61,642 nt of DNA from positions 1-61,642 of the forward strand of contig JAUWMI010000028.1 of NCBI GenBank assembly GCA_030613245.1. Direction: 5' to 3'. Position numbers and translations under genes: made by a program. Positions 1,564 through 56,705 of the stretch are shown here, piece by piece. Origin of the DNA: Candidatus Sumerlaeota bacterium. GTDB taxonomy: Bacteria; Sumerlaeota; Sumerlaeia; MWCT01; JAUWMI01. Under the pieces are notes generated by a model. That model ran no database searches. It was not told the origin of the DNA and saw only the letters and a list, made by a program, of their open reading frames with translations. The stretch's first letter is position 1. Each line of letters opens with the position of its first letter.

Positions 1564-3327
1564 TTGGAATCTATGAAAGAAGCGATCGTACTCTTAGAAT
1601 CTTATGATTTGAATCGCAGTTCCCGGTCGTTTTTGTTCTGTGAGCCGGTAGATCAAGTTTTGGCCTTGAAGCAAGAGGAAGTATACTGCGGGCTGGATCG
1701 GGTGGAAGAAGCGGTACGGCATGGGTTGCATGCAGCGGGGTTTGTATCGTACGAGGCGGCAGCAGGGCTTGACCCGGCATTTCGCGTGCGCTCGGGCGGA
1801 GAATTTCCGCTGCTGTGGTTTGGGTTATTCCGGGAACGCCGGGAAGTCGCTGCTGATCAGCGAATGAGCGAGGGGACGTTTCGTTTGTCGGATTGGATTC
1901 CTTCTCGATCTCGAGACTCCTACGCAAGGGCAATTCACAGTGTTCGCGAGCAGATAGCTGCCGGAGATACCTACCAGGCAAATTTCACCATGCGCTTGCG
2001 CTCGTCATTCGAGGGTGATGATTTTGCCTTCTACCGCAGTCTGTGCCACTCGCAACGAGCAGCATATTGCGCGTATATCAACATTGGCCGCTACCGGATT
2101 CTCTCTGCATCTCCAGAGCTTTTCTTACATCTGCGGGACGGCACGTTGACCACTCGACCTATGAAGGGGACTTTTACGCGCGGCAAGTGGTCAGATGAAG
2201 ACAACCGGCACGCAGTGCTTCTGGAGCGCTCGGCCAAAGATCGCAGCGAAAATGTGATGATTGTTGATCTGCTTCGCAACGATCTCGGCCGCATTTCGCA
2301 AATTGGCAGTGTTCATGTCCCCCGGCTTTTTGAAGTGGAGAGGTACGATACCGTTCTGCAAATGACTTCTACGGTTACGTCCACGCTGCGCACGGATGTT
2401 TCGCTGTCGCAGCTCTTTGCGTCACTGTTTCCTTGCGGTTCAATTACCGGGGCGCCGAAGATACGAACCATGGAGATCATAGCGGAGCTGGAAGATTCGC
2501 CGCGCCGAATCTATACGGGGAGTATTGGCTTCATATCGCCAGGGCCTGAGGCGGTTTTCAATGTTGCAATTCGCACAGTTCTGCTGGATACGACAACGGG
2601 AACAGCAGAATTTGGTGTTGGGGGTGGCATTACTTACGACTCGACGCCTGACGGCGAATATGAGGAGTGTATGGTGAAGGCAAGGTTTCTGGGAGAGCGT
2701 CGTCCGGATTTCGATCTGCTGGAATCGCTGTTATATGAAAGAGGACACGGCTATTTTCTCCCGGAGCGACATCTGAAGAGGATGGCCGACTCTGCGCGCT
2801 ATTTTTGCTTTCGGTTTGAGGAAAGAGCAGTCAGGGAGGCGCTGGAGCGTGTTGCCAATATACTGGTCAGCGGGCAGCATAAGGTGCGTCTTCTGCTTTC
2901 GCGCAACGGGACATTGCGCGTGGAACACCAGCCTCTGCAGCAGAGGGCCTCTGGTGTGATGCCCACGGTAGCTCTCGCGACTAGCCCGGTTGATAGCAAT
3001 GATGTGTTTCTATTTCACAAGACAACAAACCGTGGCGTCTATGAATCTCGGGCAGCATCGCGGCCGGATTGTGACTATGTCATTCTTTGCAACGAACGCG
3101 GCGAGGTAACCGAATCTACGGAATCGAATATCGTGGCGGTTCTTGACGGACATCCGTGGACGCCGCCTTTGGAATGCGGACTTCTCGGGGGCACATATCG
3201 CACGGAACTACTAGAGAAAGGGCGCATCAAGGAACGGGTGTTGCGGCCTGACGAACTGGGTCGAGCGGAAGCAATCTACCTGATCAACTCGGTACGAAAG
3301 TGGATAAGGGTTCGACTTGTTGAATGA
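1564..3327 (+). CDS. pabB: Aminodeoxychorismate synthase component I fused to 4-amino-4-deoxychorismate lyase
   Basis: A 587-residue PabB-PabC fusion for p-aminobenzoate, and hence folate, synthesis. The chorismate-binding domain spans about 115-375 with RPMKGTFTRG (Lys201, the residue typical of PabB rather than isochorismate synthases), GSITGAPKIRTMEI and GVGGGITYDS. From about 380 it becomes a class IV aminotransferase-fold lyase, with HKTTNR (Lys486 as likely PLP lysine) and a TESTESNI motif. Both halves are complete. The start is taken as TTG 1564 because AGGA at 1554-1557 is spaced correctly for it; the ATG at 1573 is the alternative. No separate pabA (glutaminase) is present in the window. 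Confidence 0.92.
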   Translation: MESMKEAIVLLESYDLNRSSRSFLFCEPVDQVLALKQEEVYCGLDRVEEAVRHGLHAAGFVSYEAAAGLDPAFRVRSGGEFPLLWFGLFRERREVAADQRMSEGTFRLSDWIPSRSRDSYARAIHSVREQIAAGDTYQANFTMRLRSSFEGDDFAFYRSLCHSQRAAYCAYINIGRYRILSASPELFLHLRDGTLTTRPMKGTFTRGKWSDEDNRHAVLLERSAKDRSENVMIVDLLRNDLGRISQIGSVHVPRLFEVERYDTVLQMTSTVTSTLRTDVSLSQLFASLFPCGSITGAPKIRTMEIIAELEDSPRRIYTGSIGFISPGPEAVFNVAIRTVLLDTTTGTAEFGVGGGITYDSTPDGEYEECMVKARFLGERRPDFDLLESLLYERGHGYFLPERHLKRMADSARYFCFRFEERAVREALERVANILVSGQHKVRLLLSRNGTLRVEHQPLQQRASGVMPTVALATSPVDSNDVFLFHKTTNRGVYESRAASRPDCDYVILCNERGEVTESTESNIVAVLDGHPWTPPLECGLLGGTYRTELLEKGRIKERVLRPDELGRAEAIYLINSVRKWIRVRLVE

Positions 3328-3359
3328 GAAAATGGTGAGAAGCCACAGCATGAGCCATA

Positions 3360-3437
3360 GGTATTAGCCACAGATGAACACAGATACACACCGATTGGGG
3401 GCTTAAGTTACTGCGTTTGTCTGCGTGCATCTGTGGT
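3360..3437. repeat. Dispersed ACAGATGAACACAGAT repeat, inverted pair
   Basis: CCACAGATGAACACAGATAC on the left and GCGTGCATCTGTGGTTG on the right form inverted arms of the same family as 314-405. The right arm overlaps the 3' end of the metallophosphoesterase gene, so the repeat encodes that protein's last residues and its stop codon. Confidence 0.75.
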
Positions 3438-4325
3438 TGTTGTTTCTTCGTGCATTGTTACCATTTCCGGCACAGCATCCAAACCGTAATACTTGTGTTC
3501 AATCTGATCTTTAAAAACCTTCACGATTCTAAACCCGGATGGATCCTCTCCTAATGGTTTGCCTACAGGACCTGAGGTTATCATCTCCATGGTCCCGTCA
3601 TTAGCATAACAGTTACGGTGGTAATGTCCGGCAAAAACAGCTGATACATTGTTTTCTTTAAAAAGATTCAAGTACTTGGGACGCCGTTCTTTAGGGATAT
3701 TGAAATAGCCGTCTTTCTCCTGAGGATCTTTGAGGAACAATGGATGGTGTTGAAAAACGATGGTATGGATGGGCTTTTCATTATTAGCATTCTTCAATGC
3801 ACCACTTAACCACTCCCACTGCTTCTCCATCTCTTCACGGACTTTATCCGGACGATGAATAATTGTAGTGTTTATTACCACGAATTTACAACTCCCATAA
3901 TGAAAAGAATACCAATCTTTTCCGAATGTTTTTCTGTACCACTCAAGATTTTCTAAAGTCGGTTGGTTTCCCACGTCGTGGTTTCCTGGCACCCAATATA
4001 AGGGTATCTTTTTATCAAGTTTATGAGCGATTCGGAACAGTTCTTTGGTCTGCTCTTCATCACCAGGCTTGTTAATCAAATCACCGCAGATAACCACAAA
4101 AGCGGGCTTTAAGCGGTTTGCATGTGAAATGGCCTTTTCAAAAAGCTCGGTTTCTTTCTTGAAACTCATATTGGCAGCAAACATGCCAAACTGGGGGTCA
4201 GCCATCTGGACGAAGAAGAAAGGACCTTGCCATTTGGAGTGCTCTATTTCAGAAGAATACCTGGCACTCATGCAACATCCAGCAATAAGAACTAGAAGAA
4301 TAGCAATTTGAGATAGCTTCTTCAT
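3408..4325 (-). CDS. Calcineurin-like metallophosphoesterase lipoprotein
   Basis: A 305-residue protein. The N-terminus carries a lipoprotein signal (ILLVLIAGC, Cys17), so export and lipid anchoring are likely. The metallophosphoesterase core has the metal-ligand blocks ADPQFG (about residue 42), CGDLINKPGDE, PGNHDVGN, FQHHPLF and AGHYHRN in the usual order, most like CPPED1-type phosphatases. The substrate is not readable. The start ATG at 4325 has GGAGG upstream. The last eleven residues (TTTTDARRQTQ) and the stop come from a dispersed repeat (3360-3437), so the original C-terminus may have been replaced. It points the same way as the GH172 gene upstream and may be co-transcribed with it. 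Confidence 0.85.
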   Translation of the reverse strand: MKKLSQIAILLVLIAGCCMSARYSSEIEHSKWQGPFFFVQMADPQFGMFAANMSFKKETELFEKAISHANRLKPAFVVICGDLINKPGDEEQTKELFRIAHKLDKKIPLYWVPGNHDVGNQPTLENLEWYRKTFGKDWYSFHYGSCKFVVINTTIIHRPDKVREEMEKQWEWLSGALKNANNEKPIHTIVFQHHPLFLKDPQEKDGYFNIPKERRPKYLNLFKENNVSAVFAGHYHRNCYANDGTMEMITSGPVGKPLGEDPSGFRIVKVFKDQIEHKYYGLDAVPEMVTMHEETTTTDARRQTQ

Positions 4326-4403
4326 TCTCTCATTACCTCCATAACGTTGGCTTGAGCGATGAGTTTAGGTGTACTCGTTTAAGAAAAACTTGCCAACATC
4401 AAT

Positions 4404-5474
4404 TTACTGAAAGTTAACATGACGTTCTGCCAACGGAGGTAGAGATGGCAGATTCTTGTTTACGCCCTGTTGGTACCAGAATGCAACACTTGAATAATCA
4501 TTGGCTTTGTCATTGCCATGTCCGTGTTCTATGGTAGCGCGAATGGACTTTCGGAATCTCAATGGATCTGTGAGATAGAATCGGTACATCCCGTTGGTTC
4601 CCCACCATCGGTAATTGCTCCGATTCTCAATGCAGTGAAAACCAGTGTATGGGCCGGAATATTCATTAACCGGACATGCCCCGCCACCGAAAATCTCTTC
4701 TGTTCCCGTACCATGTATTGACGGGGGAAAGCCTTCACCATCTATGAAGATCATGTCGTCGCCTTCGCCCCACCACGCACGTTCGAAGTTCACTACAGTA
4801 AGAAAATACCCGACAAATTGTCCATTTCCTCTTACATTGAGAATCGTATAATTATTTTCTCCCGACAAATTCTGCATTTCTTTTTTCCCTTCAGGAGGGA
4901 CGACGGTTTCAGTTGGATTCTCTCTGTTCCACTGCGCATGTAGCCTCCCAACATCCGCAGGAAGAACAGAAGACTTATCATACATTTCGTAGTCAATGTG
5001 AAACCATATTCTGCCATCAAGATTGCCCTGGTTCTCGATCTCGATGCGTGCTCCGTTGGTAAACGGCATAGGGAGATAGCAATTAAATCCCCATGAGCTT
5101 TGTGCCTCTTGAAAAAATCCAGGATTGGTGGTAAAAGCCAGGGATCTGATGGGTCTTACCTGACCGTTGCTAATCCCAAAGAAATCTCCCAAAGGAACTT
5201 CAAAACTGGGCGTGTCTGCGCCATCCCAGAAAGCACGTAGCACTAACCCGCGAAAGATATTCAGCCTTGGATCTTCTTTATTTTCTATATACGTCCAATA
5301 GAAGTGTTTAATGCATCCTGGGTTCTGCTCCTCCAGTAATACCTGGGTTTGGCCCGAAGGAATAATTATCCAATCTTCGTTCCCTCCGGTGCGATCCCAG
5401 CTGGAAGCTCTCTTACTGCGGAAATCCCGCAAAAGGCATATTTGGGACAATAATCCGGCGTTTTTCATACTCAT
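4404..5474 (-). CDS. Glycoside hydrolase family 172 (DUF2961) enzyme
   Basis: A 356-residue protein matching the DUF2961/GH172 fold along its length: SSWDRTGGNEDW near residue 24, a WWGEGDDMIFIDGE block, HGTGTEEIFGGG, then RFYLTDPLRF...ATIEHG and the closing DYSSVAFWYQ. GH172 members include alpha-D-fructofuranosidases and D-arabinofuranosidases, acting as oligomers. The usual GTGTEDYF motif reads GTGTEEIF here, a small departure near the active site. No signal peptide is visible, so it is probably cytoplasmic. The ATG at 5474 is preceded by AGGAGG; a second ATG two codons on is also possible. The metallophosphoesterase gene follows on the same strand. Confidence 0.88.
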   Translation of the reverse strand: MSMKNAGLLSQICLLRDFRSKRASSWDRTGGNEDWIIIPSGQTQVLLEEQNPGCIKHFYWTYIENKEDPRLNIFRGLVLRAFWDGADTPSFEVPLGDFFGISNGQVRPIRSLAFTTNPGFFQEAQSSWGFNCYLPMPFTNGARIEIENQGNLDGRIWFHIDYEMYDKSSVLPADVGRLHAQWNRENPTETVVPPEGKKEMQNLSGENNYTILNVRGNGQFVGYFLTVVNFERAWWGEGDDMIFIDGEGFPPSIHGTGTEEIFGGGACPVNEYSGPYTGFHCIENRSNYRWWGTNGMYRFYLTDPLRFRKSIRATIEHGHGNDKANDYSSVAFWYQQGVNKNLPSLPPLAERHVNFQ

Positions 5475-6093
5475 GCTGCCTCCTATTTTTTAAACCATCT
5501 TACTCATGACGACTGCTCACAATTAGACTGCCTGACGCTCCACTTCGGCTTATGAAGGCGTCCGTCTTGGCGGACGCACTCCGAAGGACTATTAGCACAG
5601 TATGAGCGTTCAAAATCTACACGTGATGAATTCTCGGGCACTTTGAGTTACTAAGATTCCTCCAATAGAGCAACATGGGATGCGTGGGTGACAGGTTCAA
5701 TTTGTATCGTAACGCACTCATGGCAAACTTGGCAACAATAATTGTCAAATCATTTTTACTCTGAAGAAGTTGGAATAAACAATCGAATCGAAATTATCTA
5801 ATTGCAATCGGGGTATCATTCTTGCTTCATAAGTGTTCCCAAATTTTCCTATGGTTTTCTGCGGTTTCCTATTAGTACATGCTGCAAAATCAGGTAAGTT
5901 CAGTGTTGTCAGTTGTATGAAAAACAGACCTTGTGAAATCCGCTTGGCACCAAAATTATGCACAATGCTGAATGTAAGCCGTTAAAATAGAAGAGTATAG
6001 TACTCCTGCATTGACAGACATTTATTCCTAAGGTATTGTTGATACAGTAGATTGCGCAAGGGAGAGGTCTGTTTTATTTGGTGCTGCATATTA
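5475..6093. other. Gene-free stretch
   Basis: About 620 bases without a convincing gene. A GGCGTCCGTCTTGGCGGACGC-like hairpin lies near 5555-5578. A 72-codon minus-strand frame at 5745-5963 has no start context or recognisable motif. Confidence 0.5.
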
Positions 6094-6385
6094 TGAAAAA
6101 TGCATTCCCGCCATCCTGTGTTGTCCACATTGTACGGGAAGTCAATATTAACCCATAATAAATACAGGGCGACGAAGTGATTGAAGGAATGGTTCGATGC
6201 TTAAATTGCCATTATAATTGTGTGACATTTTCGAGGGAATTCCCCGGATGATATTGAACTTCAGGGCGAGAAAATAAATCGCTGACCAATCACCTGCAGC
6301 AATTTTCCAGTGGAAAGCGTATTGTCAAAGAGTTGAGCCGAGTGCTTATGACCGCATGAAAGAGTCATTCAAGTTGAGTATTTAA
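6094..6385 (+). pseudogene. Degraded N-terminus of a Trm112-like zinc-finger methyltransferase
   Basis: Reading across frameshifts gives K-CIPAILCCPHCTGSQ, then EVIEGMVRCLNCHYNC...FSREFP, then QWKAYCQRVEP...YDRMKESF. These line up with the CPCC / EEILEGLLHCNKCG..FEITEGVP / YQWEM..KSKFES blocks of the intact gene that starts 62 bases downstream. At least one frameshift and several stops break the frame, and the SAM-binding part is absent. It is most simply a decayed extra copy in a tandem methyltransferase family. Confidence 0.75.
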
Positions 6386-6447
6386 GAAGCATCTCCATTT
6401 CCTAAACATTCAACGACTGAGAACAATATGTTCACTAGGAGATACTA

Positions 6448-7386
6448 ATGCAGGAGAAATTCTTAGACATTATTGTATGTCCTTGCTGTAGAGAGTCGCT
6501 TTCTCTCACGAAAAAGAAGATTATTAACGAAGAGATTCTGGAAGGTCTTCTTCATTGTAATAAATGTGGTAATGCTTTTGAAATCACCGAAGGGGTACCC
6601 AGATTAATTCTCAATTTAGAGGAGAGAAAAGAGATCGCCAAGAGCTTTGGTTATCAATGGGAAATGAGAGCAAAGAGTAAATTTGAATCAAATTCACTTC
6701 TTTATGGTGAAACAGAAGAGCAAGAGCTTAAATCTTTTTTTCGATATTTCGGTATAGAACAAGCAGATTTGCAGGGGAAAGTTATTCTGGATGCGGGGTG
6801 CGGATGCGGAAGACTTACAAAGGCTTTAGCTCGATTTGGAAAGGAAATCGTTGGACTCGATATTTCATCTTCAATGGGAACGACCTATCAGACATGTATG
6901 CCCAGCAAGAATATCGCCCTTGTTCAAGCAGATGTTTTGAATCCGCCTTTCCGCAAGGCAACTTTTGATTATGTATGGGCTGAAGATACTATATGCTATG
7001 TAAAGGACGTTCGTAAAGCTTTTGACCTTCTCAGCGATCTGGTTAAACCCTCTGGCAAGCTTTTTGTGCGAGTTCCTTGCATCAATAGAAGTTGCTTTGC
7101 GGTTAAACTCCGGGGGGTATTGGGTTTTACTCATAGAATCCCAAGAAGGCTATTGTTTTGCTTTAGCTATTGCCTGGCCCCCTTTTGGAGCCTGGCCAAA
7201 ATTATGTTGCGAAAAAAAAGGAGCAGCATAAAAAGCAGTGCATTTTTCCTTTTTAACGCCTTTTCACCTGAATTCATAGAATACAAGAGTGAGGAAGAAT
7301 TAATAAACTGGTTCAAGGAAAACCATTTTTCCGATATTGAATTGACCCCTGATAAAGCAATAGCCATCCGCGGAACAAAGACATAA
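6448..7386 (+). CDS. Class I SAM-dependent methyltransferase with N-terminal Trm112-like zinc domain
   Basis: A 312-residue protein. Residues 1-55 form a Trm112p-like zinc ribbon with ligands C11, C14, C37 and C40, ending in the typical TEGVPRLIL. From about 110 a class I methyltransferase follows, with motif I VILDAGCGCGRL (112-123), an acidic residue closing strand 2 (GLDISSS) and a motif-II region around ADVLNPPF. The C-terminal third has hydrophobic patches. The acceptor is unknown; such two-domain proteins are common in surface-glycan and antibiotic-type clusters. The next gene is a close paralogue, and the region is visibly AT-richer than the flanking housekeeping genes, suggesting acquisition as a block. 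Confidence 0.85.
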   Translation: MQEKFLDIIVCPCCRESLSLTKKKIINEEILEGLLHCNKCGNAFEITEGVPRLILNLEERKEIAKSFGYQWEMRAKSKFESNSLLYGETEEQELKSFFRYFGIEQADLQGKVILDAGCGCGRLTKALARFGKEIVGLDISSSMGTTYQTCMPSKNIALVQADVLNPPFRKATFDYVWAEDTICYVKDVRKAFDLLSDLVKPSGKLFVRVPCINRSCFAVKLRGVLGFTHRIPRRLLFCFSYCLAPFWSLAKIMLRKKRSSIKSSAFFLFNAFSPEFIEYKSEEELINWFKENHFSDIELTPDKAIAIRGTKT

Positions 7387-7432
7387 TGAATATTTGAATT
7401 AGTGAAACTTGATCAGGCTAGTTAAACTCATT

Positions 7433-8365
7433 ATGAGGAAAAGACTTACTGAAATCGTATGCTGTCCAAATTGTAAGCAGGAGTTGATATTAAAACATGA
7501 AAAGACGCAAGGTGAGGAAATTGTTGAAGGAAAACTTGAATGCATGAGCTGCCACCATGCATATGAGATTTTTGAGGGTGTTCCTAGAATAATATTGGAT
7601 CTTAAGAAGAGAAAAGAAATCGCTAATCGCTATGGCTTTGAATGGGCAAAAAGAGTTGAAGACAGTTTCGAAAGCGACACGTTATATGGAAAAAGCGAAG
7701 AGGAGGAGCTTGACTATTTTTTCTCTAGCTTTGGAATTCAGCCTTCCGATTTAAATGGTAAAAGCGTCCTTGATGCAGGGTGTGGATGCGGAAGGCTGAC
7801 CAGAATGTTGGGACCTTATTGCAACGAAGTGGTGGGCATGGACATAGCGGCCTCAATTAATAGCGTTTATGATCATTGTAAATGTCAGAACAATATCCAT
7901 ATCCTTCAGGCTGATATATTAAAGTTGCCGTTTCGTACGAACTATTTTGATTTTGTATGGAGCAGTGGCGTTATCTCTTACACTGGAAGCAGTGATGAGG
8001 CTTTTCAAAGCCTTAGTAGCTTGGTGAAGCCACACGGAAAGCTATTTGTGCGTGTTTTTTCTAATTCAAACTTGACTGCTGCAGAGAGATTAAAAAAAAT
8101 CTTCTGGTTTTCGCACAAAGTTCCCAAAGAGGCCCTATTTTATCTTTGCTATTTACTAGCAATTCCTTGGAGCATTACCAAATATTTATTTGATAAACGA
8201 CATAAGTCGCTGAAGACGAACGCGTTTCATTTGTTTGACACGTTAGCCCACCCTTTTACTCGTCACTCGGAGGAGGAGGTAAAGAGCTGGTTCAAACGAG
8301 AAGGATTTTCTGTCATTATGAGTCGCGATGAAGGTGGTGTCTCAGTAAGCGGGATCAAGGAATAA
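7433..8365 (+). CDS. Second zinc-finger class I SAM methyltransferase (paralogue of 6448-7386)
   Basis: A 310-residue paralogue of the preceding gene, with the same zinc ligands (C11, C14, C37, C40), the FEGVPRIIL linker and motif I VLDAGCGCGRL. I place the start at ATG 7433 because it aligns residue for residue with the upstream protein; a TTG at 7409 would add eight residues that the paralogue lacks. The gap to the upstream gene is 46 bases, consistent with one transcript. The duplication suggests two sequential methylations or two acceptor positions on the product of this cluster. Confidence 0.85.
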   Translation: MRKRLTEIVCCPNCKQELILKHEKTQGEEIVEGKLECMSCHHAYEIFEGVPRIILDLKKRKEIANRYGFEWAKRVEDSFESDTLYGKSEEEELDYFFSSFGIQPSDLNGKSVLDAGCGCGRLTRMLGPYCNEVVGMDIAASINSVYDHCKCQNNIHILQADILKLPFRTNYFDFVWSSGVISYTGSSDEAFQSLSSLVKPHGKLFVRVFSNSNLTAAERLKKIFWFSHKVPKEALFYLCYLLAIPWSITKYLFDKRHKSLKTNAFHLFDTLAHPFTRHSEEEVKSWFKREGFSVIMSRDEGGVSVSGIKE

Positions 8366-8413
8366 CCATTGATTCTGTTATTCTGACAACAAATCAAGCA
8401 TCATTTGAAAACA

Positions 8414-9487
8414 ATGCAGCGCAATTCTAGAGTTAAAATAATAGACCCATCAAAGGACGAACGTTGGGATAACTTTATTTCGCAGCAGGAGTATTCGACC
8501 GTTTATCATCACTCTGTATGGAAAGAGCTTCTTCAAAATACCTTTGGGCACATAGAATCCCTTCACTTCGTTCTTGAGGATGCTGAAAACAATATAGTCG
8601 GCGGAATTCCTCTCTTCCTGGTAAAAAGCTGGCTGACAGGAAATAGATTGGTTTCAGTTCCATTTGCGTCGGTATGCAAACCCCTGGTTTCAGGATTGGA
8701 GGACCTTGAAGCACTTACAGAAGCCATGATTGAAAAACTGAGTGAATACAAATGTTCCTATCTAGAGCTAAGAACGAGGGACGACCATCCGTTCTGGGTT
8801 GTGAATAAATTCAAAGAAATATGCCAATTCAAAGGTCATATGTTAGCATTAAATAAAGACCGGGATACTTTGCTAAAATCATTTCATAAGACATCTATTC
8901 AGCAAAGAATTAAAAGGGCAGAAAGGGAGGGGTTAAGAGCTAGGATAGCTTCCTCCGAAAATGACCTGAAGGCCTTTTATCGTCTTCTTACATTCTTGCG
9001 GCTTAAGAAAATAGGATTGCCGCCTCCTCCTTACAAATTATTTAAAAATATGTGGGAAATCTTGAGACCTAAAAATATGCTTGTATTGCATCTAATAGAA
9101 TATGAGAAAAAAGTAATTGCCGGAATGCTGGTGTTTAAGTTCAACCAAATTGCCATATCAGAGCATTCGGCCACAGAGGGCCAATACCTGAAGAAATGTC
9201 CTGACCAACTTTTGTGGTGGAAGGCTATAGAATCAGCGCAAAAGGATGGATATAAATCCTTTGATTTTGGAAGAGTATCCATGGACAACAAGGGCCTACT
9301 TGACTTCAAGCGTAGATGGCAGCCCAGAGAATACAACCTGTTTAACTTGTATTTTCCTGAAGCAAAAGGAGTGTATTCTTCAAATAAGGAAGGCCTAAAA
9401 TACACATTAATGAATATGGCATGGCGTCACATGCCTGTGCCCATTGCAAGAATCGGAGGGCACTTTTTATACAAGCATTTGGGGTAA
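8414..9487 (+). CDS. FemAB-like GNAT-fold aminoacyl/acyl transferase
   Basis: A 357-residue protein of the FemAB / Acetyltransf_6 type. The first half has the YHHSVWKELL..TFG block, the middle the basic helix FHKTSIQQRIKRAEREGL, and the end a GNAT-like core with YKSFDFGRVSMDNKGLLDFKRRW. Known relatives add amino acids to peptidoglycan or act in exopolysaccharide (XrtA/PEP-CTERM-associated) systems; here the substrate is unknown. ATG 8414 is chosen over TTG 8405, which adds only three residues. A paralogue (11247-12299) lies on the other side of the carbamoyltransferase. The stop overlaps the ribosome-binding region of the next gene, suggesting coupled translation. Confidence 0.82.
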   Translation: MQRNSRVKIIDPSKDERWDNFISQQEYSTVYHHSVWKELLQNTFGHIESLHFVLEDAENNIVGGIPLFLVKSWLTGNRLVSVPFASVCKPLVSGLEDLEALTEAMIEKLSEYKCSYLELRTRDDHPFWVVNKFKEICQFKGHMLALNKDRDTLLKSFHKTSIQQRIKRAEREGLRARIASSENDLKAFYRLLTFLRLKKIGLPPPPYKLFKNMWEILRPKNMLVLHLIEYEKKVIAGMLVFKFNQIAISEHSATEGQYLKKCPDQLLWWKAIESAQKDGYKSFDFGRVSMDNKGLLDFKRRWQPREYNLFNLYFPEAKGVYSSNKEGLKYTLMNMAWRHMPVPIARIGGHFLYKHLG

Positions 9488-9493
9488 GTGATA

Positions 9494-11212
9494 ATGAGAA
9501 TACTCGGAATCCATGATGGCCATAATGCTTCGGTTTGTCTGTTAGAAGATGGCCATATTATAAGTGCAATACAGGAAGAGCGGCTCGCAAGAATCAAGAA
9601 TATTATGGGTCTCCCATCTCGAGCCATCAATGCGGTTCTTAAGTCAAGCGGCCTATCGTATGGCGACATTGATTTGATAGCGATGCACTCCAGACATATG
9701 CCAATGATTATCAATAGAGACCAGCTTCTTGAGGAATACGGGCATTCCGATTCAATGAATATGTATCTGAAAAGATTTGTTAAAGGAATGGTAAAGAAGA
9801 CTTTCCTGAAGAAACCTTATTTAGAACATAGACGGAGAGCGCGTGTTCAAGAAATTTTGGAGCAAGGGTTCGACTATGACAAGATTATCTTCGTTGAGCA
9901 TCATTTAGCACATGCAGCTGCGGCCTATTATGGATCGCCATGGAAAGGTAATGAAGAAATTCTGGTGCTTACGAATGATGCCGGTGGTGACTGGTTATGC
10001 GCGACTGTTAATGTAGGCAGAAATAATTCCATCAAGAGAATAGCGGAGATACCAGTCAGCCACTCAGTTGGGTATATCTATTCAATGCTTACATTCATTT
10101 TGGGAATGGTTCCTGAGGAGCATGAATATAAAGTCATGGGCATGGCACCCTATGCCGGTGCGGGCTACACCGAGAAATTTTACGGCGTATTAGATAAGCT
10201 CATAGAGTTCGACAAGTCTACTGGAGGAATAACGTGGTACCGCACAAATGGATGTCCTCATACACAATTCAGTTATAGGTTTTTTAGGCGCTTAACTGAG
10301 CTTCAAAGATTTGATGCAATATGCGGAGGATTGCAAAAGTTTATTGAAGAATTTATCATAACGTGGGTAAGGAATTGCATAGACAAGACGGGAATTCGAA
10401 AGGTTGCGCTGAGTGGCGGGGTGTTTATGAATGTGAAGGCAAACAAGCATATTTTAGAATTGCCAGAGGTTGAATCCCTGTTTGTCCTTCCATCTTGTGG
10501 TGATGAAACGAATGCTATGGGGGCTGCCTACCAGGTTTATGTAGAAGAAATGTCAAAACAAGGTCAGGAAGTAAAGATACCACCATTGAGAGACCTTTAT
10601 TGGGGTTTAGAATTCAAGAATGATGAGATTGAAGAGCTGCTAAAGAGAAAGCACCTGCTCTATGAGCGAAAAGATGATATAGAGAAAGAAATTGCTCTAC
10701 TCTTAAGCCGAGGTGAGATTGTTGCCAGGTTTAAGGGGAGAATGGAATTTGGTGCCAGGGCACTCGGCAACAGGTCGATTCTAGCTGATGCCAGGAATCT
10801 AAGTGTCATTAAGATTATCAATGAAATGATAAAAAACAGGGACTTCTGGATGCCTTTCGCCCCGTCGGTTCTGAAGGAAAGAGAAAATGACTATGTAATA
10901 AATCCAAAAGAAATGAAAGCGCCTTATATGATCATATGTTTTGATTCAACTGATAAAATCGATCACTTGAAAGCAGCATGTCATCCCTATGATAATACCG
11001 TGCGGCCGCAAATAGTTGAAAAAGACTGGGCTCCTGATTATTATCGGTTAATAAAGGAGTTTGAGAAAATCACAGGAGTAGGCGCGCTCTTGAACACTTC
11101 CTTTAACCTTCATGGGTATCCCATTGTTTGTTCACCGGAAGATGCCATTGGCGTCTTCCAGAAATCCGGGCTAAAATACTTAGCTTTAGAGGATTATCTT
11201 GTTAGCAAATAG
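9494..11212 (+). CDS. NodU/CmcH-type carbamoyltransferase
   Basis: A 572-residue protein of normal length for the family. The N-terminal Kae1-like ATPase fold begins GIHDGHNASVCLLEDG and has the metal-site segment EHHLAHAAAAYYGSPW and NDAGGDWL. The C-terminal YrdC-like domain contains FKGRMEFGARALGNRSILAD and ends with the NTSFNLHGYPIVCSPEDA block. Family members transfer carbamoyl from carbamoyl phosphate to hydroxyls of sugars or antibiotics (NodU, CmcH, TobZ). The setting among methyltransferases, FemAB-like proteins and a GT4 enzyme suggests decoration of an exported glycan or a glycosylated small molecule. ATG 9494 is used; GTG 9488 is an alternative two codons upstream. Confidence 0.92.
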   Translation: MRILGIHDGHNASVCLLEDGHIISAIQEERLARIKNIMGLPSRAINAVLKSSGLSYGDIDLIAMHSRHMPMIINRDQLLEEYGHSDSMNMYLKRFVKGMVKKTFLKKPYLEHRRRARVQEILEQGFDYDKIIFVEHHLAHAAAAYYGSPWKGNEEILVLTNDAGGDWLCATVNVGRNNSIKRIAEIPVSHSVGYIYSMLTFILGMVPEEHEYKVMGMAPYAGAGYTEKFYGVLDKLIEFDKSTGGITWYRTNGCPHTQFSYRFFRRLTELQRFDAICGGLQKFIEEFIITWVRNCIDKTGIRKVALSGGVFMNVKANKHILELPEVESLFVLPSCGDETNAMGAAYQVYVEEMSKQGQEVKIPPLRDLYWGLEFKNDEIEELLKRKHLLYERKDDIEKEIALLLSRGEIVARFKGRMEFGARALGNRSILADARNLSVIKIINEMIKNRDFWMPFAPSVLKERENDYVINPKEMKAPYMIICFDSTDKIDHLKAACHPYDNTVRPQIVEKDWAPDYYRLIKEFEKITGVGALLNTSFNLHGYPIVCSPEDAIGVFQKSGLKYLALEDYLVSK

Positions 11213-11246
11213 TTCCTGGGAAAGATAAATTCTGAGGTTTTGAAGT

Positions 11247-12299
11247 ATGAGATTTGAAAACATCGATCCCTCAAAAGATCTAGCATGGGACCGTTTTGTC
11301 CTTGAGAGCCAGCTTGGGTCAATCTATCACCTTTCGTCCTGGAAAGAAGTTATCTCTAAGACTTTTGGGGCTGAGCCATTTTATTTCGTCCTAAGGGATG
11401 AAAATGATTCCATTAGGGCCGGGTTGCCATTCTTTTTTGTAAAAAGTAGATTTACTGGGAAAAGGCTTGTGTCACTTCCTATGGCTTCTTTCTGCGATCC
11501 ATTGATTGATAACACAAGCGCTCTTGATGAACTCTTAAACGTAATCCTTCAGAAGTCTATGGAGTTTGATACTTCATATATTGAGATAAAGACTCTTAAT
11601 GAATTGAAGTTTCTAAATGAAAGAAATTTCAAATGCCATATGGATTATCAAACCCATATCTTGGCTTTAGATATGGATTTGGGCGTTATTGAGAAATCTT
11701 TTCATACTAATGTCAAGCGATGCCTGAAAAAGGCGAAGGGTAATAATGTTATAGTAAGGGAAGCGGCAAATAATGAAGATGTAAAACTATTTTTCAAATT
11801 GCATGTGCTTACGAGGGAAAAACATGGATTATTGCCTCAGCCGTTGAGCTTTTTTAAAAATATGTGGGAGATACTCTATCCAAAGGCGTTGTGCTCATTG
11901 CTGTTGGCAAGCTATGAGAATCGTACTATCGCAGGGGCGTTTTTCTTGAAGTTCAAAGATACCTTCTATTATGAGTATGGCGCCTGGGATGAGAAGTTCC
12001 ATAAACTATATCCAACTCACATTTTGTTATGGGAAGGCATCAAGATAGCTCATGGGGAGAAATACAAATTTTTTGATTTTGGAAGATCATCAGTGGAAAA
12101 TGAAGGGCTTAACGTTTTTAAAGAAAAGTGGGGAGGGCATGCGAAGCATTTATATTACTACTATTACCCTGATATTGGTGGTGTTGCTTTAGCAAAAACG
12201 AATGAGAAGAAATATTCCCTTATCAAACAAGTTAATCGCCACATGCCATCGCCGATTATGGGGATTGTGGGAGGTTACTTATACAAGCACTTCATATGA
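11247..12299 (+). CDS. FemAB-like GNAT-fold transferase, paralogue
   Basis: A 350-residue paralogue of 8414-9487. The shared blocks are IDPSKDLAWDRF at the start, SIYHLSSWKEV, FHTNVKRCLKKAK in the middle and YKFFDFGRSSVENEGLNVFKEKWG near the end, with a common HMPSPIMGIVGGYLYKH tail. Its presence on the far side of the carbamoyltransferase gives a symmetric methyltransferase-methyltransferase-Fem-NodU-Fem-GT4 order. The start ATG 11247 lies 34 bases after the carbamoyltransferase stop. Substrate unknown. Confidence 0.82.
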   Translation: MRFENIDPSKDLAWDRFVLESQLGSIYHLSSWKEVISKTFGAEPFYFVLRDENDSIRAGLPFFFVKSRFTGKRLVSLPMASFCDPLIDNTSALDELLNVILQKSMEFDTSYIEIKTLNELKFLNERNFKCHMDYQTHILALDMDLGVIEKSFHTNVKRCLKKAKGNNVIVREAANNEDVKLFFKLHVLTREKHGLLPQPLSFFKNMWEILYPKALCSLLLASYENRTIAGAFFLKFKDTFYYEYGAWDEKFHKLYPTHILLWEGIKIAHGEKYKFFDFGRSSVENEGLNVFKEKWGGHAKHLYYYYYPDIGGVALAKTNEKKYSLIKQVNRHMPSPIMGIVGGYLYKHFI

Positions 12300-12442
12300 T
12301 TTATGACATACCTATCTAATAATATAAGCGGCTCTTATATGAGAAACGTTGCATTTCCGGTTTTATAAACAGAGAGGCAAAAGGGACTAATAGGTGCAAT
12401 AGATCTTCTTAAGATGTAATTTTAATTGGAGCTTAGTCCAAA

Positions 12443-13618
12443 ATGAACATATGTGTCCTTGCCTGGGCTTTCTATGATTATGATGCTCGCATTAGAAGGG
12501 AAGCAGAGGCTTTAGTTGATAGAGGTGATTCGGTAGACGTAGTTTGCCTAAGGTGGAAAGGCGATAAAAAGCATAATACTGTGCATGGGGCCAACGTATA
12601 TAGAATTACCGAAAGAAAGCTAGAGGAAAAAGGGGCTCTAGATTATCTCGTCGCGGTTTTGAAATTCTTTATTCTATCTTGTTATTGGGTTACGAAGCTT
12701 CATTTCAGGAAGAGATATGATATTATTCATGTCCACTCAGTCCCAGACTTCGAAGTATTTGCTGCGTTAGTACCGAAATTATTGGGAGCTAAGATTATTC
12801 TCGATATCCATGATATTGTCCCAGAATTCTATGCACAGAAATTCTCTGTTAATCAGAACAGTCTCATTGTAAAGGCACTAAAGCTTATAGAAAAGATTAG
12901 TATTAAATTCTCAAATCATGTGATAATAGCAAATGATCTATGGCGGGATAAGTTGATAAAACGCTCCATCCGGGAAGATAAGTGCACGACACTGCTCAAT
13001 TTTCCTGACCCAAAAATCTTTAAGAGAAAAAATCATGTCAAATATAGTAACTTTACTTTGATCTATCATGGACTGTTGGCTAAGCACCAGGGATTAGATA
13101 TTGCGATTAAAGCGGTTAATGTACTTAAAGATGAGATTCCTTTGTTAGAGTTAGTGATTTATGGTAAGGGTCGCGATCAGCAGAGGTTGGGTAACTTGAC
13201 GAAAGAAATGCACTTAGAGGATAGAATCATTTTCAACGATTCGGTTCCTGTAGATCTTATTCCTGATATTATTAGTAAAGCGCATATTGGTGTGGTTCCA
13301 AAGAGAGGGGGAGATTTTTCCGGGGAAGCTTTTAGCACAAAAATATTGGAGTTTATAGCTGTAGGAGTACCAGTAATTGCAGCAAGAAACAGGATTGAAG
13401 AATATTATTTTAACGATTCTCAGATACTGTTTTTTGAGCCAGGCAATGAGGAAGATCTGGCAAAATGTATCTTGGAACTATATAGAAATTCTGCAAAGGG
13501 AGACGCGCTTGTAAAAAAGGCAGATGAATTCTTATCAACATTTAATTGGGAAGTTCATAAGGGTACGTTTTATCGTATAACAGACAATTTGGTGAGAAAA
13601 AACATTAAGAATGAGTGA
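12443..13618 (+). CDS. Glycosyltransferase family 4
   Basis: A 391-residue GT-B protein. The N-terminal domain starts NICVLAWAFYDYDARIRREAEAL, as in GT4 enzymes that bind lipid-linked acceptors, followed by DIIHVHSVPDFEVFAAL and ILDIHDIVPEF. The C-terminal nucleotide-sugar domain has LIYHGLLAKHQGLDIAIKAV and the EAFSTKILEFIAVGVPVIAAR segment that carries the E-x7-E-type donor site. The donor and acceptor cannot be named. It closes the AT-rich modification cluster; the 143-base gap upstream could hold its own promoter. Confidence 0.88.
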   Translation: MNICVLAWAFYDYDARIRREAEALVDRGDSVDVVCLRWKGDKKHNTVHGANVYRITERKLEEKGALDYLVAVLKFFILSCYWVTKLHFRKRYDIIHVHSVPDFEVFAALVPKLLGAKIILDIHDIVPEFYAQKFSVNQNSLIVKALKLIEKISIKFSNHVIIANDLWRDKLIKRSIREDKCTTLLNFPDPKIFKRKNHVKYSNFTLIYHGLLAKHQGLDIAIKAVNVLKDEIPLLELVIYGKGRDQQRLGNLTKEMHLEDRIIFNDSVPVDLIPDIISKAHIGVVPKRGGDFSGEAFSTKILEFIAVGVPVIAARNRIEEYYFNDSQILFFEPGNEEDLAKCILELYRNSAKGDALVKKADEFLSTFNWEVHKGTFYRITDNLVRKNIKNE

Positions 13619-13976
13619 TACTAGATTGAAAAAGAATACATACTCAAAATGTTCCATGTACTTATGAGTGAAAAAACGGTATCACGCCGAGATGAGACAA
13701 TCGTACTGTCCTTTGAACTCATAACCGATGTTTGAATGCATAAGTAACGCGCCTAAAAGGCAAAAGAAACCCTCATCTGCATCTGTTCTTCCTTCCCAGA
13801 AAAGAGAGTGCTCGATACCTGCGTTTCTTGCCCAGAAGTCACATAATGCCAACCTGGAAAAAAGTATGTAAGGATCAACCAGAATAAAAAGCGCCTGTGC
13901 TCTTAGACACGGAGTTTGTGGTGGCATTTCCTTCTTGTTTAATCTTTGCTGGTGGTTTTGCGAGAACTGGCTTTTA
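13619..13976. other. Gene-free stretch between GT4 and GH2 remnant
   Basis: About 360 bases. A minus-strand frame at 13682-13927 (81 codons) is open but lies directly downstream of a decayed GH2 tail, has no ribosome-binding site and no recognisable motif, so it is probably not a gene. Confidence 0.45.
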
Positions 13977-14054
13977 TTAAGCAGGGTTCCTTGCGCGGAG
14001 TTCTACGTCACGAATCTGGAGGGCGTGGCAGTTTTGCGTGAACGGATTCTCCTC
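13977..14054 (-). pseudogene. C-terminal relic of a GH2-like glycosidase
   Basis: The minus strand reads EENPFTQNCHALQIRDVELRA-RNPA followed by a stop, which matches the last residues of the intact GH2 gene ending at 14833 (EDAPTQAGRTLQIRDIELRA-KDNP) position by position. Upstream of this fragment the frame is lost. It is the tail of a second, deleted GH2 copy; the lipoprotein gene 14112-14726 now separates it from the intact copy. Confidence 0.75.
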
Positions 14055-14111
14055 ACTTTATCCATTGAGGGTTTTCATTCCAAGTATACGAACTTCCTGA
14101 TCTATAGAAAG

Positions 14112-14726
14112 TTACTTATTTTTCAAATACCCTTTTACGAATACCAGGATTCCAACAGGCTCTTTTCGGACGAAAAAGGGATAGTAAACCGCAGCATGTG
14201 TGGGTACGGTTCCCCCAAAAGGGCTAAATAAATCCGTAGCAAAAGGCTTCTTTAAATCAAGCGCCATTATCATATTCTCGTTGATCTCGATCTTGTGAGT
14301 CCCTTCGCGTTCGATAATATCTGAAGAGGAACAGAGAATTTGATATTGTGTGGCAGAGTCAACAAATCGGGCAATATAGATATATTCAGGCCACGCGGTT
14401 ACGTTGTCTACAAGCGCTTGTAATTGCTCTTTCATCCTGTCGTGCTTTATGCTTCGCCTGTATTCCTCAATGTCTATATCACTTGCGAAAAGCGAAAGAG
14501 TGACCATACGCGCCGCAACCTCCGCGCGGCGATATAGCTCTTTCTGCGCTTCGGCATCCCAAGCACGGTAAACATAGCCACGACTTCTTGGGAACGGATC
14601 ACCCTCCTTTATGATTTCTTGAATAGGAGAATAATAAACACCTTTGTCTTTGCTTAATATAGCACAGGACATCATTGTAATAGATAAAACGGCAAGCAGT
14701 GTGAATTGAAGGCATTTTCTTCTCAT
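14112..14726 (-). CDS. Predicted lipoprotein of unknown function, Cache-like sensor character
   Basis: A 204-residue protein with a lipoprotein signal (TMMSC, Cys21) and a preceding AAAAGGAGG ribosome-binding site. A helical stretch (RAWDAEAQKELYRRAEVAARM, then a second helix to about residue 110) is followed by a beta-rich segment with GTVPTHAAVYYPFFVRKEPVGILVFVKG. That ending resembles extracytoplasmic Cache or PAS-like sensor modules, but there is no transmembrane signalling partner nearby. It sits between a GH2 relic and the intact GH2 gene, on the same strand. Function unknown. Confidence 0.6.
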   Translation of the reverse strand: MRRKCLQFTLLAVLSITMMSCAILSKDKGVYYSPIQEIIKEGDPFPRSRGYVYRAWDAEAQKELYRRAEVAARMVTLSLFASDIDIEEYRRSIKHDRMKEQLQALVDNVTAWPEYIYIARFVDSATQYQILCSSSDIIEREGTHKIEINENMIMALDLKKPFATDLFSPFGGTVPTHAAVYYPFFVRKEPVGILVFVKGYLKNK

Positions 14727-14832
14727 ATCAAGCCCCTCCTTTTCGAAAATTGATACCGTTCTTCCGGGTCAATTCATATGGTACTAGCACGACACGTTAC
14801 ATTGCTAAGTTTTCATATACAATTCAACCCAA

Positions 14833-17730
14833 CTATTGCTTATCAGGATTATCCTTTGCCCGCAGTTCAATATCACGGATCTGAAGAGTGCGGCCGGCCT
14901 GCGTTGGGGCATCCTCTGGCACTAATAAAGTCAGTTTGTGTTTCCCCGTCGTTAATCCGGTAATCTGGCACTCTACAGGTACAAAATGCTCCCATCCGTC
15001 TGACCCTTGAAATTCCAGTTTCTGCGCTTCGCGGTCGTCAATCTGGATATGGAGTACAATGTTCTTAAGAGGGCTGGCCAAGTCCAGGGTGCAGAAAAAA
15101 TCGCTTTCTGTTTTGTTTTCGAATTCCCAGGTTAGATTATCTGCTGGTTGCGCGTTGAGATACCATTGGGTCTGAGCATATTCATAATGCACGCCTAGGC
15201 GGTCTTCATCAATGCTCTTTGCTTCGTAAATAGGCAGAATAATCAGCTCGTAAGGGCTTAACAGCCATTTCCAGCGAGTGGCGTATCGCGCCGGCATTTC
15301 GTCGTGAGTCAAGGGCTCGCGAGCAGCCAGCTCCACAGCGAAATCCTCGATCATCTTCCGGAGTTCTTCCGAGGTCATGCTTATCGAGGGGTGCCAGTTC
15401 GGGCCGGTCAGGTAGCGAAGGAGCTGGTCGAACATGTAGCGCGTAGCCACGGCCCGGGGGAAGCTCTGGGTCAGGTTGAGCGTGCTGACAAAGACCTTTC
15501 CTCGCCCTACCCCCAGCTCGACCATATAGCCTTTGCTGCGGCCGCGGTGGTAGCTGTCAATCGTCCGGATCAGAGGTTCGGTTCCTGGGGGAAAGCGATC
15601 CAACTGAAGGGATTTGGCCCGGTAAATCATTGGCCAGAAGTGGAGGTCGCAGAAACCCTCATGCGGGAAGTTCTCGAGGGCGGGATGGGGGTAGATGAGA
15701 GTTCCGCTGTTGCCATAGCGAGGTTTGGTATTGCTGCAGATCGTGAGCCACTTGGTGCAGTGCTCGTTCAGTTCTGGAAAGACCGGCGGTGCTTGGTCGT
15801 AGGGGATAAAGTGTGTGATGTGTAGTCCGAAAATACCTATCTCTTCCGGCCAGGGCCAACTTTTGTCTGAGATCATCCAGATACTCCCTCCACTCTTCAG
15901 GAAATCATAGAACGATTCCTGCCAGGAATCCGTGATGATCAGCCGGGACTCGCCACTCGTCACCTTCCAGTTTTCATCGTCAACATAATGAATGCCAGGA
16001 TAAACATCCAAATAGGTCTTCATCCGCTTGCGAGGATCCCAGAGAGTGACTTTTTTCTGCACAACAGGCTTCACGGTATCTTTGGGGAATGCCCAGAAGA
16101 ACCATTCGTTGTTGATATAGGTCGGCGACTCCGGCAGAGCGGCGCGAAGTGTCAGCTTTGCCGGTTTGGGCAGCTCAGGGATCGTCACACTGATTTTGCC
16201 GATCTCGGCGACATCTACAGCCCCGACGCTGACATGCTCGAAAGCGCCCTCGGCTAGAACCTGCGGACCGTTCATAAGCCACCACTGGCATTTCGATGCT
16301 GAGTACGGCTCCGGCCCATGATGCGAAATCTCCAGGGTAGCCTTCAGGGTATCGCCATACCAGAAGCTGCGTCCGTTCCAGGTGCATAACAGAACCGTCT
16401 CTCCGTTAGTGCGCAGGAATTCCTCGGCAGTGACGTTTTTGGGATCGGCGAAATCGTCAACCACGCCCGAGACCCGGTTTTGGCAGTCGGTGAAGCGCAA
16501 CATGCTATAGCCATCCAGTTCGCGAAACTTTCGGGCTTCTTCCAACATCTCTTTGCGGCAGAGAGCCTGGATTTTCTCCGAGTTTCGCACGAAGTCCGCA
16601 AGCAAGTGTTCCAGCCCGTTCTTCCTGGCGTTTTCAACAGCAAACTTGATCCAAAAGGGCTCTTCATGGTACTTCGCAGCCAGCGCCGGGTTGGGGTAGG
16701 AGGCGACCAGAGGATACTCATGGGCGATGATCGGGAACTCGTCGCTGCGCCCTTTGCGCTCGCCCCGCAGGTACAGCATGAAAGCCTCGCGGGCAAACTC
16801 TGCCACATGCTCGTATTCCCCAATGGGGCGTTCAATCAGGTCATATTTGCCAAGGTCATCGTTGAAAGGGTTGCTGCCCGAACGATTGAGCACGAGAACG
16901 CTTGGGTCCATCTCTTTGGCAAGGTTGTACAAAAGGTTCTGGCAGCGGATCAAACCCGGGTCGTTCTTGTAAATCTCGTTTCCCATGCTATAGATATACG
17001 TGCACGGATGGCGCCGGCCGCGTTCGATCATGCTGACCCAATCCTTTTTTGACTCCAGGAATCTGTCTGAGGCAGGGTCGGTTCCGATTTTCCCACCGAT
17101 CTCCATTTGAATGAGAAGACCGACTTCATCAGCTACGTCCAGGTAGGTATCGCTTGGCACATGCGAGTGGTGGCGGACTGCATTGAAACCATACCGTTTG
17201 ACCTGGGTGAGTCTCTTGACTATTCCCTTCCTATCCAGCTTCTCGAGGAACTCCTCTGGCTCATGTCCACAGACTCGGAAATAAAACGGCTTATTATTAA
17301 TGTAAAAGCGTGCTCCTCGGGTCTCGAATTTGCGCATGCCGAAGCGTTGGGTGGCTGAAGCTAGGAGGGAGCCGTCTGCAGCGTGAATGGCCATCTCCAG
17401 CCGGTACAGGTTAGGAGTTTTGGGATGCCAGAGGATGACCGGGTCTATATCCACCGGAAGAGAGGAGTATGAATCCGCCGCAGGCGTACTGAACGGAATG
17501 CCGCTGGTTTTTCGCTTTGAGCCATCAGGGTATTCAACGGTGATATCAACTTTTGCATTCTGGAAACGGCTCGCCGCTTCCTCGTCGAGCCATACGCGGA
17601 CTTCAATTTGCCCTCGATCAATATCCGAGAGGATGAAGATGTCTTGAATCGGCCGCTGCATAGCATTCTGGGCCAGCGCAGCAGAGACCAAAATCATCAA
17701 AACGACCGCGATCGTAATTGTCTTTGCCAT
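14833..17730 (-). CDS. Secreted glycoside hydrolase family 2 protein
   Basis: A 965-residue exported protein with a signal peptide (VVLMILVSAALAQ). It starts directly with a beta-sandwich (QDIFILSDIDRGQIEV) and then the TIM-barrel of GH2: HHSHVPSDTYLDVADEVGLL, the acid/base in YSMGNEIY (Glu252) and the likely nucleophile in IIAHEYPLV (Glu338). The usual N-terminal sugar-binding domain is missing. A long C-terminal part follows, including a DUF-like alpha/beta region (about 590-790) and a beta-sandwich tail (about 865-955) that could bind carbohydrate. The substrate (beta-galactoside, -glucuronide or -mannoside) cannot be decided. AGGAGG precedes the ATG. A relic of a similar gene lies at 13977-14054. 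Confidence 0.82.
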   Translation of the reverse strand: MAKTITIAVVLMILVSAALAQNAMQRPIQDIFILSDIDRGQIEVRVWLDEEAASRFQNAKVDITVEYPDGSKRKTSGIPFSTPAADSYSSLPVDIDPVILWHPKTPNLYRLEMAIHAADGSLLASATQRFGMRKFETRGARFYINNKPFYFRVCGHEPEEFLEKLDRKGIVKRLTQVKRYGFNAVRHHSHVPSDTYLDVADEVGLLIQMEIGGKIGTDPASDRFLESKKDWVSMIERGRRHPCTYIYSMGNEIYKNDPGLIRCQNLLYNLAKEMDPSVLVLNRSGSNPFNDDLGKYDLIERPIGEYEHVAEFAREAFMLYLRGERKGRSDEFPIIAHEYPLVASYPNPALAAKYHEEPFWIKFAVENARKNGLEHLLADFVRNSEKIQALCRKEMLEEARKFRELDGYSMLRFTDCQNRVSGVVDDFADPKNVTAEEFLRTNGETVLLCTWNGRSFWYGDTLKATLEISHHGPEPYSASKCQWWLMNGPQVLAEGAFEHVSVGAVDVAEIGKISVTIPELPKPAKLTLRAALPESPTYINNEWFFWAFPKDTVKPVVQKKVTLWDPRKRMKTYLDVYPGIHYVDDENWKVTSGESRLIITDSWQESFYDFLKSGGSIWMISDKSWPWPEEIGIFGLHITHFIPYDQAPPVFPELNEHCTKWLTICSNTKPRYGNSGTLIYPHPALENFPHEGFCDLHFWPMIYRAKSLQLDRFPPGTEPLIRTIDSYHRGRSKGYMVELGVGRGKVFVSTLNLTQSFPRAVATRYMFDQLLRYLTGPNWHPSISMTSEELRKMIEDFAVELAAREPLTHDEMPARYATRWKWLLSPYELIILPIYEAKSIDEDRLGVHYEYAQTQWYLNAQPADNLTWEFENKTESDFFCTLDLASPLKNIVLHIQIDDREAQKLEFQGSDGWEHFVPVECQITGLTTGKHKLTLLVPEDAPTQAGRTLQIRDIELRAKDNPDKQ

Positions 17731-30418: not shown

Positions 30419-30465
30419 ATTTTTGAGGGGTGGCAAAGGTGACAAAAAGTTTCGCCTGAACGCAG

Positions 30466-42331: not shown

Positions 42332-42420
42332 TGGTGCCGAAGCGGGGATTTGAACCCCGACGAGGTTGCCCCCACATGACCCTGAATCATGCGCGTCTGC
42401 CAATTCCGCCACTTCGGCAC
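42332..42420 (-). tRNA. tRNA-Leu (anticodon CAG)
   Basis: The minus strand from 42420 reads GTGCCGAAGTGGCGGAATTG, a class II tRNA with long variable arm. The anticodon arm is CATGA-TTCAGGG-TCATG, anticodon CAG; the T arm contains GGGGTTCAAATCCCC and the acceptor closes with CGGCAC plus an encoded CCA. Confidence 0.97.
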
Positions 42421-56336: not shown

Positions 56337-56705
56337 ATGGATATTGATAGACTGACAGAAAAGATAATTGGGTGCGCATACAAAGTCCATAATAGTCTTG
56401 GACCGGGTTTTGTTGAAAAGGTCTATGAAAATGCTTTGCGTATCGACCTGGAGGAGCGTCGACTCAAAGTAAAACAGCAGGAACCTGTTACTGTTTACTA
56501 CCGCGAGCATATTGTTGGAGAGTTTTCCGCGGATCTTATAATTGAGGATCGAATCGTAGTGGAGCTCAAAGCAATACGCAACGTGGCAAAGGAACATGAA
56601 GTTCAACTGGTCAATTATCTTAATGCCACAAAGATCGACCATGGGCTGCTGATAAATTTCGGGTCTTCAGTGGAAGTGAAAAGAAAATTCAGGGAATACG
56701 ATTGA
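56337..56705 (+). CDS. GxxExxY protein (PDDEXK_3 family)
   Basis: A 122-residue protein with the family signature LGPGFVEKVYENAL (G-x-x-E-x-x-Y at residues 24-30 approximately) and the nuclease-like core GEFSADLIIEDRIVVELKAI followed by HEVQLVNYLNATKIDHGLLINFG. The D...ExK spacing is that of a PDDEXK fold. The biological role of this very common family is not settled. It is flanked by copies of one AT-rich repeat on both sides, which suggests the gene moves or spreads with that repeat. It stands directly before the first cassette element. Confidence 0.9.
   Translation: MDIDRLTEKIIGCAYKVHNSLGPGFVEKVYENALRIDLEERRLKVKQQEPVTVYYREHIVGEFSADLIIEDRIVVELKAIRNVAKEHEVQLVNYLNATKIDHGLLINFGSSVEVKRKFREYD

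Follow-up and report, generated by a model that had tools for sequence, protein, structure and literature searches.

A cluster of six intact open reading frames (ORFs) on the + strand at 6448-13618 of contig JAUWMI010000028.1, from a Candidatus Sumerlaeota bacterium, appears on balance to be an imported operon decorating a surface glycan, either an exopolysaccharide or one of the lipopolysaccharide (LPS) type, whose backbone would be made elsewhere in the genome. The window, that is, the whole 61,642-nt stretch analysed, is an entire contig of a 97-contig, 4.29 Mb assembly that is 96% complete. The genes lie in the order MT1-MT2-FEM1-CARB-FEM2-GT4 and encode two methyltransferases, two FemAB-like transferases flanking a carbamoyltransferase, and a family 4 glycosyltransferase (GT4). 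This content and order, and the duplication of two gene families, had been proposed by a first-pass annotation made from the letters alone, and they were borne out by the intact frames and by domain assignment with Pfam. MT1 and MT2 share 44% identity over 311 residues, FEM1 and FEM2 40% over 351 residues, and MT1 carries the motifs CPCC...CNKC and LDAGCGCGR. According to the ORF coordinates, the gaps from MT1 to GT4 measure 22, 39, 0, 34, and 143 nt, and on account of this tight spacing the six genes likely form one transcription unit.

The connection with polysaccharides comes from relatives of the block genes in other genomes. On a contig of a Clostridia metagenome-assembled genome (MAG; L049), a GT4, a second GT4, a FemAB gene, a deacetylase-like ORF, DegT, and Gfo/Idh genes follow one another in this order; the second GT4 is 35% identical to that of the window and the FemAB protein 40%. 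The deacetylase-like ORF was judged by eye and from its blastp kin, and the first ORF resembles an O-antigen ligase/polymerase, both having no Pfam match at 1e-4. A Planctomycetota MAG (L048/L101) contains three FemAB genes, one of them (L048, 10001-11071) with an in-frame TAG, together with polysaccharide deacetylase, methyltransferase, radical SAM, and ATP-grasp proteins. FemAB matches at E <= 1e-40 occur in 19 of the 397 genomes of the class to which this MAG belongs, and we fetched the surrounding stretches from 14 of the 18 matching genomes besides the MAG itself. By blastp against a reference set labelled from plasmid annotation and Pfam, glycan genes were found in 13 of these 14 stretches, the sole miss being a 4.5 kb contig. 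One locus (L088) combines Wzx, Wzy_C, GT2/GT4, DegT, FemAB, and a methyltransferase. A FemAB gene shares its locus with a GT4 related to that of the window (29-35% identity) in L049, L087, and L088, at a distance of about 9 kb in L087. Plasmid matches to FemAB came from 19 records, and each of the four annotated regions viewed among them is a polysaccharide locus.

The methyltransferases point in the same direction. Their profile at 1e-28 matched nine of the 397 genomes, and six of eight fetched stretches contain glycan genes. One of these loci, L125, combines the block's kinds of gene within about 14 kb: Wzx, three methyltransferases (one with a Trm112-like start), an ORF joining deacetylase and FemAB parts, AsnB, Wzy, two GT4 genes, and a carbamoyltransferase. 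An asparagine synthase-like gene was also seen near the Trm112-type methyltransferase in five of the eight loci (L125, L127, L129, L130, and L131). The methyl, carbamoyl, and possibly aminoacyl decoration of a glycan suggested in the first-pass annotation is the best-supported reading in view of the FemAB relatives in exopolysaccharide loci and of L125, where the gene kinds stand together with Wzx and Wzy; its suggestion of an exosortase link, in contrast, failed, as described below.

None of the 30 window proteins put to Pfam, those of the block included, is a flippase, polymerase, nonribosomal peptide synthetase (NRPS), or polyketide synthase (PKS), some small ORFs lying outside that set; the absence of such genes from the block had been noted from the letters alone. 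No initiating transferase was among the 30 proteins either, and the window thus holds no complete Wzx/Wzy locus within that set. The backbone can come from elsewhere, as had also been anticipated, because 13 Wzy_C matches above the cut-off, one below it, and three initiating sugar transferases (PF02397) are present in the same genome, all on other contigs. In the scheme that we propose, GT4 would add a sugar to a lipid-linked precursor, and MT1 and MT2 would methylate it. TobZ converts carbamoyl phosphate into carbamoyl-adenylate, and by the same route CARB would place a carbamoyl group on a hydroxyl. The sugar's amino groups might receive acyl or aminoacyl residues from FEM1 and FEM2, an activity that has been proposed for HfsK.

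Table 1. Genes of the block and the neighbouring relic, with the matches on which each assignment is based.
Feature	Position	Strand	Assignment	Evidence
Relic	6113..6283	+	Methyltransferase relic, Trm112-type, gene start only, with internal stops	67.6% DNA identity, E 5e-8; tblastn E 1e-6
MT1	6448..7386	+	Class I S-adenosylmethionine methyltransferase with Trm112-like zinc-ribbon start	Methyltransf_11 E 2.7e-19, Trm112p E 5e-7
MT2	7409..8365	+	MT1 paralogue	Methyltransf_11 E 6e-17, Trm112p E 7e-9
FEM1	8405..9487	+	FemAB/GNAT-like acyl- or aminoacyl-transferase	Acetyltransf_6 E 5e-15, FemAB E 4e-10
CARB	9488..11212	+	NodU/TobZ-type O-carbamoyltransferase, two domains	Carbam_trans_N E 2e-45, Carbam_trans_C E 3e-59
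FEM2	11247..12299	+	FEM1 paralogue	Acetyltransf_6 E 1e-16, FemAB E 1e-13
GT4	12443..13618	+	Family 4 glycosyltransferase	Glycos_transf_1 E 8e-22; E-x7-E motif at residue 295

Judged from its sequence, CARB is a member of the NodU/TobZ O-carbamoyltransferase family (PF02543 + PF16861). Carbam_trans_N scores 156 bits (cut-off 24) and Carbam_trans_C 199.7 bits (cut-off 27), together spanning the full protein, and the relatives in the PDB are TobZ, decarbamoylnovobiocin carbamoyltransferase, and GdmN. Residues H138, H142, D164, and D339 are invariant in all four rows of a four-member alignment and align with TobZ residues that we take to be its His/His/Asp/Asp metal site; the stretch E-F-G-A-R-A-L-G-N-R-S is also kept. 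With both domains, the metal-site residues, and the carbamoyl-adenylate domain motif, CARB resembles the TobZ, decarbamoylnovobiocin, and NodU enzymes. It falls far below the cut-off of the NodU nodulation equivalog model NF041651 (96 bits against 1000).

FEM1 and FEM2 match FemX by profile (E 2e-8). The structure model of FEM1 is of moderate quality (predicted local distance difference test, pLDDT, 73.7; predicted template modelling score, pTM, 0.72; built on five sequences, with the last 40 residues scoring under 50), and its top structural match is FemX (E 2e-16, template modelling score, TM, 0.62), which suggests a FemX-like double GNAT fold. The next matches are Sbb17/Sba18 (TM 0.55), peptide synthases dependent on aminoacyl-transfer RNA (tRNA) and solved with streptothrisamine. 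K302 of FEM1 aligns with FemX chain residue 305, a Lys whose role is treated in the available part of PMC12945691, and Lys occupies this position in all 32 homologue rows reaching it (35 rows in total, with at least one gene entered twice). Compared without a family dependent on coenzyme A (CoA) as a control, the conserved Lys is compatible with the use of aminoacyl-tRNA by FEM1 and FEM2 but is no proof of it. A bolder proposal is that both enzymes depend on aminoacyl-tRNA and add amino acids to a carbamoylated, methylated surface sugar, and that the polysaccharide-associated FemAB family, including HfsK and the XrtA FemAB proteins, performs tRNA-fed aminoacylation of glycans instead of acting as CoA-dependent acetyltransferases; we put this forward only tentatively and regard it as doubtful.

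TIGR03019, the FemAB family of XrtA/PEP-CTERM systems, is the best NCBIfam match of both FEM proteins over nearly their full length. Their scores of 152.9 and 115.4 bits, however, fall far short of the family cut-off (260.35), and the 96% complete assembly gave no match to exosortase PF09721 at E <= 0.001, in a search that was positive in one of 14 control genomes. We therefore abandoned membership in this family, and with it the exosortase suggestion of the first-pass annotation. A full-text literature search combining FemAB, PEP-CTERM, and exopolysaccharide yielded a single paper.

A precedent might be HfsK of Caulobacter crescentus, which the available text of PMC5362036 describes as a FemX-like tandem GNAT protein tied to the holdfast polysaccharide. 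HfsK and its paralogues affect the holdfast exopolysaccharide in C. crescentus (PMC5362036, PMC8449245, as far as accessible), hfsK lies outside the hfs backbone locus (PMC8449245), and HfsK is 25 residues longer than FemX, an extension required for membrane association (PMC5362036). FEM1 and FEM2 share with it the FemX-like tandem GNAT arrangement, the tie to exopolysaccharide, a location outside a backbone locus, and a C-terminal extra part (FEM1 exceeds FemX by about 28 residues at that end). The likeness is one of description, without direct comparison to the HfsK sequence, and unlike hfsK the two FEM copies flank a carbamoyltransferase. The Pseudomonas core-LPS genes PA5002-PA5005, which according to the available part of PMC8005017 encode a PIG-L deacetylase, a GNAT protein, the glycosyltransferase WapH, and the carbamoyltransferase WapO (wapO), likewise form a set in which GNAT, glycosyltransferase, and carbamoyltransferase genes adjoin one another and serve a surface glycan, again compared by description and not by sequence; the methyltransferase pair distinguishes our block from them. 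Searching full texts for the combination of FemAB, carbamoyltransferase, and glycosyltransferase yielded only a staphylococcal paper, seemingly unrelated by title and abstract, and the combination of carbamoyltransferase, NodU, O-antigen, methyltransferase, and glycosyltransferase only a genome survey.

Another system that we compared leads to a different explanation. In the accessible text of PMC12945691 and PMC10156733, Orf11 of the streptothricin-like antibiotic BD-12 is a Fem-like, Gly-tRNA-dependent enzyme that glycylates a pathway intermediate whose amino sugar is carbamoylated. FEM1 has the same FemX-type fold in its model, which also matches Sbb17/Sba18, and the closest solved carbamoyltransferases serve antibiotics. 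The block could accordingly be imagined as a small-molecule pathway like that of BD-12, in which an amino-sugar antibiotic would receive tRNA-derived amino acids through the FemAB pair and a carbamoyl group through CARB, and would be finished by the methyltransferases. The likeness to Orf11, which serves a soluble antibiotic pathway, is one of fold and description. The small-molecule reading seems improbable: the window proteins tested include nothing of the NRPS, PKS, amino-sugar, or streptolidine type, and the relatives of FemAB and GT4 reside in polysaccharide loci.

The base composition sets the block apart from its surroundings, as the first-pass annotation had stated. GC content is 0.37-0.41 in the block and about 0.50-0.57 across most of the window; the six genes have a GC of 0.373-0.417 and a third-position GC (GC3) of 0.36-0.42, compared with 0.445-0.575 and 0.48-0.66 in 18 reference genes of the window; GC is 0.48-0.58 in the majority of the other genes tested. 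Among 39 genomes of the class, the FemAB profile recovered both window copies and, in two other genomes, a pair of weak matches (E 8e-20 and 9e-17), and the methyltransferase profile only the window pair at E <= 1e-20. The low GC and this patchy distribution support horizontal acquisition, and from its sequence the block is probably an imported accessory set. We found no flanking repeats marking the edge of an island, the repeats in 3200-15000 being short or between paralogues, and no tRNA at the block, the sole tRNA of the window being at 42332-42418. Scans for promoter-like (31 matches versus 21.9 expected, standard deviation 5.2) and terminator-like sequences (8 versus 6.8 expected) were uninformative. 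The low-GC zone extends past the six genes, with 3408-5474 and 14112-14726 also low (0.42-0.46). On the left edge of this zone, directly after the PabB gene, 3368-3436 forms an inverted repeat whose 22-nt arms are 82% complementary.

CARB is distributed differently from the other genes, with matches in 34 of 61 genomes, its own included; relatives at about 50% identity (45-51%) occur in only four others (G005, G008, G020, and G024). That this subfamily occurs in the class without the other block genes, and that low GC reaches well beyond them, would suit a chance gathering of unrelated genes with separate roles in a low-GC zone. We consider such a coincidence very improbable, given the single strand, the gaps of at most 143 nt, the two pairs of paralogues, of which the FemAB pair encloses CARB, and the sharing of a locus by FemAB and a related GT4 in three other genomes. 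The first-pass annotation had made its cluster hinge on close relatives not carrying the genes separately, and the outcome is mixed: the close CARB relatives of the class stand alone, whereas FemAB and GT4 keep company in those three distant genomes.

Several observations weigh against a decorating operon. Since the block itself has no backbone gene, only its relatives elsewhere tie it to a glycan. Two of the eight methyltransferase loci showed no glycan genes, and similarity to L125 is low (28-29% for the Trm112-type methyltransferase, 31% for the carbamoyltransferase, and a weak match of 20% for FemAB). None of the remaining block genes was found by tblastn in the fetched stretches around the four closest CARB relatives; nine further stretches with the CARB subfamily show no close FemAB, and glycan-type genes stand beside it in only four of them (L142, L147, L149, and L150). 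Nowhere else did we find the exact order of the six genes. According to the available part of PMC8449245, loss of hfsK and its paralogues left holdfast binding unchanged in H. baltica, and the HfsK precedent is therefore not general. Finally, the relic beside the block, whose reality the first-pass annotation had asserted and the DNA and tblastn matches uphold, is closest to MT2, aligning with MT2 DNA at 7454-7624; tblastn of MT2 against 5475-6447 recovered it with stops within. It spans only about the first quarter of a methyltransferase gene, the Trm112-like start, and as a decayed neighbouring paralogue it means that the operon may be declining.

Taken further, the block would be a decaying remnant of a complete imported polysaccharide locus that has lost Wzx/Wzy and its sugar-making genes and has little or no present function. 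The relic of a third methyltransferase, the low GC with FemAB and methyltransferase relatives nearly absent from the 39 class genomes, and the complete polysaccharide loci in which relatives sit all fit such a history, but six long intact frames with their catalytic motifs kept, and paralogue pairs at just 40-44% identity with both members still open, make it unlikely.

Two further identities were discarded. PADLOC proposed mad2 of the Mads anti-phage defence, its sole match overall, for MT1 and MT2, which cover only 289-422 and 291-413 of the 492-position model, that is, its generic methyltransferase part; the four remaining block proteins match nothing there. As to a phage origin, PHROGs gave matches only to generic families of carbamoyltransferases, glycosyltransferases, and methyltransferases, none of 94 candidates from a FemAB scan of viral contigs is a true relative, and the methyltransferase scan gave five loci at 24-28% identity. 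Other searches were less telling: no polysaccharide locus appeared in the plasmid regions viewed around a Trm112-type methyltransferase and a carbamoyltransferase, and the lack of any methyltransferase match at E 1e-35 in the 17 genomes of the class of G062 is uninformative. Elsewhere in the window, a B12-binding radical SAM gene at 28919-30445 has a GC of 0.378, like the block, but is isolated amid neighbours of normal GC. The right end of the contig (56266-61642) is AT-rich and carries a 192-nt element six times between small unknown ORFs, five copies being 68-96% identical to the first; one ORF start is duplicated 3.0 kb apart (58122-58421 and 61124-61423, 93%), and the ORF at 56337-56705 is GxxExxY-like.

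In summary, we favour the decoration of a surface glycan by an imported operon. Its component gene kinds are already known and co-occur in L125, and their exact arrangement is new among the loci examined. A FemAB pair flanking a carbamoyltransferase was not seen at the other loci examined; a scan of genome contigs with the FemAB pair reached two loci through two short peptide patterns only, making absence elsewhere weak evidence. Of general interest is the unsettled question of which donor serves the FemAB proteins linked to polysaccharides, and the HfsK paper, in its accessible part, calls the exact role of HfsK unclear (PMC5362036). Two FemAB paralogues with a carbamoyltransferase and two methyltransferases offer a compact set for testing both donor and acceptor; otherwise, the block would be one more mobile module for the decoration of surface glycans.

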